A DNA stretch of 32,116 nucleotides from positions 1-32,116 of the forward strand of contig CALLFZ010000040.1 in the NCBI GenBank assembly GCA_938010045.1, written 5' to 3'. The notes below the pieces were generated by a model. The model was not told where the DNA came from. It saw only the letters and a list, made by a program, of their open reading frames with translations, and did not search any database. This document shows positions 8,404 to 32,100 of the stretch, one piece after another (positions within the stretch are counted from its first letter, which is position 1; every line of letters starts with the position of its first letter). This DNA is from an uncultured bacterium (lineage in GTDB: Bacteria > Verrucomicrobiota > Kiritimatiellia > PWTM01). The translations under genes and the position numbers were made by a program.

Positions 8404-8668
8404 ACAGCCACCTGCATTGCCGTTGGTCATTCTGAGAGCGCGAATTCGCAAACCGCCACGACTCCTTTGGGCGCAGCGGCCGCCCACCGCTACAACAACC
8501 GTGCGGCACCCGCGTGCACGGAACGAACCCGATTGCGCTGCGAGGGATCAACTGGAAATCCAGGCGCCGGCGAAGGGAGGCCAGTATCCTCTGCCTCACC
8601 CCCCGCGCAATTCGCCGGTGCCTCGCTCGGAACAGCACCCCCTGGAATCGCCGTTGGGGACCGCCGTT

Positions 8669-9238
8669 GGGGACAGGCGCCTCTTTGGCCATAATTGGCC
8701 ATAATGGGCGCAGGAAACCAAACGCAGGTTGGGGACACAACACCGCTCAAACGAACTCAAAGGCTGCCAGGGCCGCCATGTGCCTGCCCCCGTGGCTGCC
8801 AGGTGCCGCTCACCGTGGGGACTCGTCTGGCCCCGCGTCGTTTGCGGCGCCTGTCCGCGGTCTTCGATTGGGGACAGGCACATGCGTATATGACTCAACA
8901 ATTTCGCCATCAATCTACTGCGGCTTTTTGTCAGGTGCCTGTCCCCCGTTTTGTCGGGTGCCTGTCCCCTTTGGTAGCCGTGAGCGATCTCGAGCGGCTT
9001 CACGCTGAAACGCGAAGGCCGGGCAGCCAGGTCGCCGTCTGCGCGCGCGGGGCTGGCCCGATGGTTTCTAACCCCGGACGGCCGCCGGAATGTCAATGGG
9101 GATAGGCACGTCCTTGGGGGGCATGACATCCCGGCCGCGCACCTGGCGCGGTCCCCTCCGCGTCAGCCGCGATGGGGGCAGGCAGCCCGCTGGGCGCAGG
9201 ACGGGGACCGGCACAAGTCGCAGGACGGGGACCGGCAC
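8669..9238. repeat. Cluster of dispersed GGGGACAGGCAC motifs, both orientations
   Basis: Plus-strand copies or close variants start at 8669, 8870, 9098, 9174, 9203 and 9227. Inverted copies (GTGCCTGTCCCC or variants) lie at 8780, 8846, 8935 and 8958. Two inverted copies are only 23 bases apart. The same 12-mer recurs at 31539-32100, so it is a genome-dispersed element, not a local duplication. No transposase is encoded nearby. Confidence 0.85.
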
Positions 9239-31170: not shown

Positions 31171-31419
31171 TCACACCGGGCCCGTCGCCGTGCCCTCGGC
31201 TGCGATCTGAGCTAGGCGATCGAACATCGCCAGCCGGGCTTCCGCCTCATGGGCATCAAGCCGCTCAATCGCAAACCCAGCGTGGACAATGACATGGTCG
31301 CCCGGTCGCGGGTCTTCGATCAGCGAAACGTCCACGTCCAGCCGAAGCCCGTCGCTCTCGGCCACCGCATGGCCATCCTCACCGATCTCCAAAAGCCGCA
31401 TGGGCACCCCAAGGCACAT
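31171..31419 (-). CDS. hypC: Hydrogenase assembly chaperone HypC
   Basis: Chaperone that carries the Fe(CN)2CO group with HypD and holds the hydrogenase large-subunit precursor. The 82-residue product starts MCLGVPM, with the essential Cys2, and continues with an OB-fold of short strands (VDVSLIEDPRPGDHVIVHAGFAIERL) and a C-terminal helix. There is no obvious Shine-Dalgarno sequence before the ATG, and a -10-like TAGAAT sits just six bases upstream, so the message may be leaderless. First gene of the hypCDEAB-malQ operon. Confidence 0.96.
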   Translation of the reverse strand: MCLGVPMRLLEIGEDGHAVAESDGLRLDVDVSLIEDPRPGDHVIVHAGFAIERLDAHEAEARLAMFDRLAQIAAEGTATGPV

Positions 31420-31455: not shown

Positions 31456-31538
31456 CGCTCCCCCGTGGCTCGGGCCGATTCCGCGGTTGGGGTGCTGGGG
31501 AATCAGCGGCCAATATCGGCGTCGGCGAATGTCTCCCG

Positions 31539-32100
31539 GGGGACAGGCAAATAGGACGGCCGTTGGGAACAGGTATCCCGTGGCCCTGGGACACCGGGCC
31601 TCCAGACGGATGGGGACAGGCACGTACTGTCGGCCGCGCACTCGGCGATAGGCGCCTCACGTCAGGCGCCGCGGAGTCCTCATGGGGACAGGCACCTCAC
31701 TGGACCTGCGATCGTCGAGCCGTAGGGTCGGCGTGGAACCCGGCCCTCCAACGGCTGCTGTAGTTCCACCGGTCCCCCGGCGGAAAATTTTGGGCGAGAA
31801 AGCTCCGGCGACAGTCATGGGGACAGGCACCTCGCTGGAACCTCGCTGGAACTGCGATCGCCGCGCCCTAGGCTCGGGGTGGAAGCCGACCCTCCAACGG
31901 CCACTGTAGTTCCGCCAGTCCCCCGGCGGAAGATTTGGGGCAGCGGAGGATGGGAGCGGATGGGGACAGGCACAGGCGAGATCCAACGGCCGCTGTAGTT
32001 CCGCCGGTCCCCCGCGGAAAATTTTGGGCGAGAAAGCTCCGGCGACAGTCATGGGGACAGGCACCTCGCGGACTGTTGGGACGGCGTTGGGGACAGGCAC
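31539..32100 (+). repeat. Array of GGGGACAGGCAC motifs, all in one orientation
   Basis: Copies or one-base variants start at 31539, 31612, 31684, 31819, 31962, 32053 and 32089, with a weaker GGGAACAGGTA near 31565. Unlike the first cluster (8669-9238), all copies face the same way. The shared 12-mer ties both regions to one dispersed repeat family. Confidence 0.88.
31681..32049 (+). repeat. Three tandem degenerate units (135, 143 and 91 bp) each with a hairpin
   Basis: Units begin with ATGGGGACAGGCAC at 31681, 31816 and 31959. Shared blocks in order are the head motif, TGCGATCG, a GTGGAA segment, CCTCCAACGGC, TGTAGTTCC and the hairpin, whose consensus TTCCGCCGG-TCCC-CCGGCGGAA is followed by A/T-rich AATTTT in two units. 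The first hairpin is at 31764-31785 with one mismatch. Unit 3 lacks about 50 bases of the middle; a fourth head begins at 32050. The structure resembles REP or MITE elements. Confidence 0.85.

Follow-up and report, generated by a model that had tools for sequence, protein, structure and literature searches.

What is the repeat array that lies upstream of hypC in this bacterium, and what kind of enzyme could have spread it? The window analysed here (G000:C40:1-32116), a stretch of 32,116 nucleotides, belongs to a genome, G000, of 3.2 Mb in 49 contigs, the assembly being 98% complete. A sequence-only reading of the locus had proposed three tandem, hairpin-bearing units as non-autonomous elements that might be moved by a RAYT/Y1-type enzyme encoded elsewhere. 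The array and its surroundings contain the following features.

31171..31419, minus strand: hypC (Pfam PF01455, E 4e-22)
31475..31530, plus strand: partial LEFT module, model positions 4-51 (nhmmer E 4.7e-6)
31539 (one mismatch), 31612, 31684, 31819, 31962, 32053 and 32089, plus strand: starts of motif copies (motif scan of the window)
31539..31550, plus strand: degenerate motif copy GGGGACAGGCAA (motif scan)
31611..31697, plus strand: C module between two direct motif copies, 31612-31623 and 31684-31695 (iterative nhmmer model)
31684..31818, plus strand: unit 1, 135 bp, consisting of motif, block and GTAG-REP hairpin (sequence reading, unit comparison)
31760..31785, plus strand: GTAG and hairpin of unit 1, arms 31764-31772 and 31777-31785, 8/9 paired, in D module 31748-31794 (by eye; D model)
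31819..31961, plus strand: unit 2, 143 bp (sequence reading, unit comparison)
31906..31931, plus strand: GTAG and hairpin of unit 2, arms 31910-31918 and 31923-31931, 8/9 paired, in D module 31894-31940 (by eye; D model)
31962..32052, plus strand: unit 3, 91 bp, first block mostly missing (sequence reading, unit comparison)
31995..32019, plus strand: GTAG and hairpin of unit 3, arms 31999-32007 and 32011-32019, 8/9 paired, in D module 31983-32028 (by eye; D model)
32053..32064, plus strand: motif copy (motif scan)
32089..32100, plus strand: last motif copy of the array (motif scan); the window ends 16 bp beyond

Since hypC lies on the minus strand, the array, whose start is 120 bp upstream of the start of this gene, is indeed upstream of it. 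Seven copies of a 12-mer, GGGGACAGGCAC, one of them mismatched, occur between 31539 and 32100, all on the plus strand, and the right edge of the array is out of view because the window stops so soon after the final copy. The whole window contains 20 motif matches at up to two mismatches, compared with a mean of 4.99 and a maximum of 10 in shuffled sequences. The steps between the motifs at 31684, 31819, 31962 and 32053 reproduce the unit lengths given before (135, 143 and 91 bp, in one orientation). The array that the three units belong to comprises seven motif copies, not three.

Units 1 and 2 have 105 nt in common at 85% identity; unit 3 retains 47 nt common to both and has lost most of the first block. 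In each unit GTAG is followed by hairpin arms of 9 nt with a single mismatch, located by eye at arm position 5, 8 and 7 in units 1, 2 and 3, which agrees with the hairpins of up to 9 bp and the differing mismatch positions noticed earlier. Folding of the whole strand of the three units gave stabilities not above those of shuffles (z -0.62, 0.92 and 0.49). Modules in the array are ordered as a partial LEFT, a C and then three D (GTAG-REP) modules. The three units are a local mosaic, in which the 12-mer alternates with GTAG-REP hairpins, placed after pieces of a larger repeat. Contrary to the earlier suggestion, they are not themselves the moved element; the element most clearly bounded by the motif is another module, 79 bp long and described below.

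The palindrome in the units of the window is a GTAG-tagged REP. Its word TGTAGYTCCGSCG has 181 matches in G000 (99+82; reversed control 4), 0, 0 and 3 in the congeners G001, G002 and G003, and 116 and 96 in two relatives, G008 and G019.

The motif proved to be a dispersed family and not a local peculiarity with few copies elsewhere: a genome-wide count, which the sequence-only reading had suggested, revealed 460 exact copies of the 12-mer in G000 (228 forward, 232 reverse; reversed-sequence control 0), most of them in intergenic clusters. With a leading T, the 13-mer still has 202+192 copies. Orientation is mixed, spacing is irregular, the copies occur as dimers or clusters, and contigs end within motif clusters. 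The 12-mer was counted 1, 30 and 0 times in three congeners. At least one 13-mer copy was present in 32 of the 387 genomes of the phylum examined; G002 had 15, G394 had 6 and the others except G000 at most 2. An Rfam search with six stretches returned no match up to E 1. DNA uptake sequences are defined by even spread over the genome and independence from longer repeats. This candidate was ruled out, the motif copies being clustered and bounding longer modules.

These modules were defined in the window together with 47 stretches around clusters, about 0.25 of the 3.2 Mb; 27 stretches came from the first 12-mer matches listed and 20 from places found by BLAST. The bare motif had also been considered as the mobile unit, a logo of 110 exact copies having kept only T and the 12-mer. 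This was rejected: the flat logo reflects a mixture of modules, because spacing analysis and core models resolved defined modules. The commonest distance between convergent neighbouring motifs, 66 bp, defines element A, 79 bp long, made up of TGGGGACAGGCAC, a 53-nt core and GTGCCTGTCCCCA, with 13-bp inverted ends. The window carries a copy of it in a second cluster (8528-9238), which reads LEFT, B, A:

8528..8676, plus strand: LEFT module (nhmmer E 4.5e-13)
8670..8791, plus strand: B module (module model)
8869..8947, plus strand: element A, TGGGGACAGGCAC with the 53-nt core and GTGCCTGTCCCCC, a strong hairpin by way of its ends (fold z -4.02)

The block flanking this cluster is inverted relative to the congener G001; as the window also has breakpoints that lack a cluster, no enrichment is claimed.

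A model built on the core of A only gave 37 rows from the 48 stretches, 34 of them near full length. Among these 34, the 13-nt end is exact on the left in 18 and on the right in 15. For 13-nt windows of the core, measured on 30 ungapped cores, identity to the consensus was seen in a mean of 13% and a maximum of 23%. Exact ends were counted in 5 and 3 of the 12 elements from motif-listed stretches and in 13 and 12 of the 22 from BLAST; both samples favour the motif somewhat. No target duplication of at least 4 bp was seen at element A (0/34), a weak test as the flanks are nested repeats.

Such unequal conservation could mean that the host now uses the 13-mer as a binding site under selection, serving as a regulator, nucleoid or termination signal, and motif copies (at most one mismatch) lie mostly outside called genes (14 of 141 inside, at a coding fraction of 0.76 in 28 stretches, by crude gene calls that missed hypC and hypD). 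We regard this as highly improbable. The 13-mer is absent from one congener and has 15 copies in another, its mixed orientation and irregular spacing do not suit such a site, and recent loss of the enzyme would leave the same pattern of better-kept ends. The stretches were, moreover, in part chosen by the exact motif.

Modules are joined in the fixed order C-B-A: 60 neighbour pairs comprised 13 BA, 12 CB, 7 bc, 4 ab, 7 DD/dd and 17 others. The C module has 32 matches in 28 of the 48 stretches (iterative nhmmer model), and its folding is not above shuffles. LEFT (53 matches in 37 of the 48 stretches) precedes C and opens a large composite repeat; nothing was recognised by eye in the translated LEFT/RIGHT consensus. 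None of the A, B, C, D and LEFT modules was found in 74 stretches (333 kb) of three congeners, and in G002 the same motif accompanies different interiors. At L339:688-2074 copies of the LEFT-C-B-A composite follow one another head to tail at intervals of about 620-640 bp, giving three LEFT copies. At L336, L344, L347 and other loci additional copies of the element ends extend outward, spaced about 22-30 bp, which suggests slippage or repeated end-joining.

Could replication slippage and segmental duplication at hairpin-forming seeds account for most of the growth of the clusters, with no dedicated enzyme? Many direct neighbours, 22-30 bp apart, look like the motif duplicated with few adjacent bases, the locus with three LEFT copies is of the kind expected, and the window itself contains a 61-nt pair that is 98% identical. 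Slippage would, however, leave unexplained why modules stand in one and the same order, C-B-A, at dozens of dispersed loci, and we consider it improbable as the main process.

We then turn to the enzyme. Neither G000 nor three congeners contain a match to PF01797 (Y1 transposase), which leaves all four genomes of the genus without one, and the domain was found in 45 of the 58 genomes of the relatives search. A home-made Y1 model detected one relic in G000, L057:10784-11086, which spans about the first 60% of the model, lacks the C-terminus and runs straight into a motif copy. Its HUH motif is broken, reading DLDHLL compared with the histidine pair of its relatives, NHYHLL. A search with the relic as query gave no match in G000 besides the relic, and none in the congeners. 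NCBIfam places it, below the cut-off, with REP-associated tyrosine transposases (E 0.0036), and its nearest sequences are the class's own RAYTs of about 350 aa (52% over 67 aa to G028). In a tree the relic falls in the clade of these RAYTs and outside the motif-flanked clade described below, a rough placement because the relic is filled in only 20% of the kept columns. As a proven mover it was rejected: the nearest RAYTs of about 350 aa have ends other than the 13-mer, and the relic stands outside the motif-flanked clade. The 3.5-kb region that holds the relic and two clusters (L057:9962-13505) corresponds to 288 bp in the congener G001; clean empty sites are unreadable because the congeners are about 75% identical and rearranged.

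None of 32 Y1 ORFs of the relatives has the 13-mer pointing inward on both sides. Their genes do possess terminal repeats of their own, with an inverted exact word of at least 11 in 21 of 24 cases (mispaired flanks 12%). Eight of these 24 genes have GGGGWSAS pointing inward at both flanks, and the outward control finds it in one of 24. RAYT genes at L041, L044, L045, L234, L236, L240 and L241 have terminal repeats that start with GGGGTCAG or nearly so. Bac_DnaA_C gave weak matches in two of three Y1 proteins of relatives.

In other phyla, by comparison, the motif does flank some Y1 genes. A scan for TGGGGACAGGCACC across 84,980 species genomes gave at least 112 stretches, in which single matches mean little because, by our own arithmetic, chance matches of the order of 1900 are expected in a collection of that size. 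For the flank test, 24 genomes were picked by eye among the matches listed, for holding the motif; their 13-mer counts lie between 1 and 194, the control giving a single match over the whole set, and 21 of them contain PF01797 (71 matches). The 50 stretches fetched yielded 49 distinct Y1 ORFs; with the loci of relatives there were 85 ORFs, 81 of them distinct. With up to two mismatches and within 350 bp, the motif points inward on both sides of 7 of the 49 distinct Y1 ORFs, and 200 shuffled motifs gave none. The seven genes belong to six genomes, recorded as Prevotella, Clostridium (two genes), Atopobiaceae, Collinsella, Clostridia and Halobacillus. In a Y1 tree of 59 rows, to which the relic was added and from which rows shorter than 180 aa were left out, these genes and the one-sided L211 share a single clade of 13 rows with support 100/100. 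Three of the seven motif-flanked proteins show HTH matches below the cut-off. In an Atopobiaceae MAG, a contig end (L191:7641-7749) carries a direct repeat of five exact 13-mers with a period of 24 bp.

Y1 genes with the motif at their flanks, missing within G000, thus exist in other genomes. Because the 12-mer family is dispersed and the 13-mer flanks RAYT-type Y1 genes elsewhere in inverted arrangement, a RAYT/Y1-type mover, as proposed at the outset, is the best reading; it is not shown in G000, as no intact Y1 gene was found there. Two other high-copy genomes do not show the link either. Nine Y1 genes of G418 (75 copies) include none flanked by the motif, and neither do the three Y1 ORFs of G402 (194 copies; ORFs recovered at four Pfam matches) when both sides are considered. 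Copy number and motif-flanked Y1 are therefore uncoupled in the highest-copy genomes, and for G000 the mover is something we infer. At loci of G402, G418 and some further genomes a short hairpin brings the motif together with GGGGACTGGCTC, a partner absent from the sampled stretches of G000. Hairpin elements with ends GGGGACTGGCTC and GTGCCTGTCCCC were seen at L130, L141, L150, L136, L166 and L092, in Desulfonatronospira and Planctomycetota MAGs.

An alternative is that the modules are still moved, or were moved, by an enzyme other than a Y1 transposase or by one residing on a plasmid or a lost contig, the likeness to TIRYT ends being convergent or inherited from an older system. The four genus genomes have no Y1 although two of them carry 460 and 30 copies of the 12-mer, G402 and G418 have no motif-flanked Y1, and with contigs ending inside clusters the assembly may lack a gene that repeats flank. 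The exact or near-exact 13-mer nevertheless flanks Y1 genes in six genomes, which no shuffled motif does; the missing target duplication (0/34) argues against the common DDE enzymes, and the completeness of the assembly against a missing gene. Such a mover is thus unlikely, if worth keeping in mind. A related proposal is that an ancient end of 12-13 bp, GGGGACAGGCAC, is recognised across several phyla and was amplified with changing interiors in a few genomes by an agent other than a motif-flanked Y1, e.g. a transposase that has escaped recognition, or replication or repair by the host acting on the end. The genomes meant would be those with tens or hundreds of copies, namely G000, a Desulfonatronospira and a Singulisphaera MAG. 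We find this proposal unlikely.

Preferred is a reading in which TIRYT-type enzymes (RAYT subclass 2.1, HUH/Y1 transposases) recognise the 13-bp end TGGGGACAGGCAC. The locus as a whole is probably a decayed mosaic of non-autonomous, single-strand-type TIR and GTAG-REP repeats, spread in trans by TIRYT/RAYT enzymes that have since been lost. A TIRYT once resident in the lineage would have cut and pasted motif-bounded modules in trans, moving them through hairpin-forming single strands and leaving no target duplication. Later local duplications, such as the 135-, 143- and 91-bp units, and losses may have built the patchwork, and the enzyme would then have disappeared, leaving a relic. A short motif tied to a specific RAYT/TIRYT clade in several phyla provides a concrete candidate recognition sequence. 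On this reading the genome also offers a natural case of two repeat families that multiplied within a single species and persisted after their enzyme was lost, informative about how repeats rise, mix and decay.

Among known systems, the closest are the TIRYTs, described by Di Nocera et al. 2013 (PMC3733652) as RAYT-like genes flanked by terminal inverted repeats that share GGGGWSAS, whose TIR repeat families form dimers and clusters and are moderately abundant. According to PMC6006769, most TIRYTs are RAYTs of subclass 2.1, which is its group 1, and carry HTH or DnaA_C-like domains at the C-terminus; PMC8049555 states that loss and gain of RAYTs may both occur. In the literature searched, no relevant paper was found with the 12-mer in a repeat context, and a Thiomargarita paper, in the best 12 of 24 places, does not have the motif in such a context.

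The end GGGGACAG fits, by eye, the consensus GGGGWSAS of PMC3733652 and PMC6006769, and the repeats are likewise single, dimeric and clustered. The likeness to TIRYTs and TIRtrons extends to the inverted motif around RAYT-like Y1 genes in other genomes and to the relatives' RAYTs of about 350 aa, with their TIRs and weak Bac_DnaA_C matches. On the other hand, G000 has no detected intact TIRYT, so that the motif does not flank a Y1 gene there; it has several distinct interiors per single end, arranged in ordered C-B-A composites; and it holds 460 copies, where PMC3733652 calls TIR families moderately abundant.

Element A resembles REPINs and MITEs in being short, non-coding and present in many copies and in the strong hairpin formed by its inverted ends, but its ends are 13-bp TIRs and not two REP palindromes, and unlike DDE MITEs it has no target duplication. 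The latter trait is shared with IS200/IS605-type (HUH) elements, a weak likeness given the nested-repeat flanks. The D modules agree with GTAG REPs and BIMEs in their GTAG foot, palindrome, high copy number and inverted pairs (CTGTAG...CTACAG). They differ in that G000 has only a relic and no intact cognate RAYT, and in that the copies in the window stand head to tail with the TIR motif and have one mismatch per hairpin. On the best reading, then, the locus is of a kind already known, TIR repeats of TIRYT type mixed with GTAG REPs. What is new is the large copy number in a genome where no intact enzyme was detected, the arrangement of modules in ordered composites, and the tie of this exact end to one Y1 clade in several phyla.
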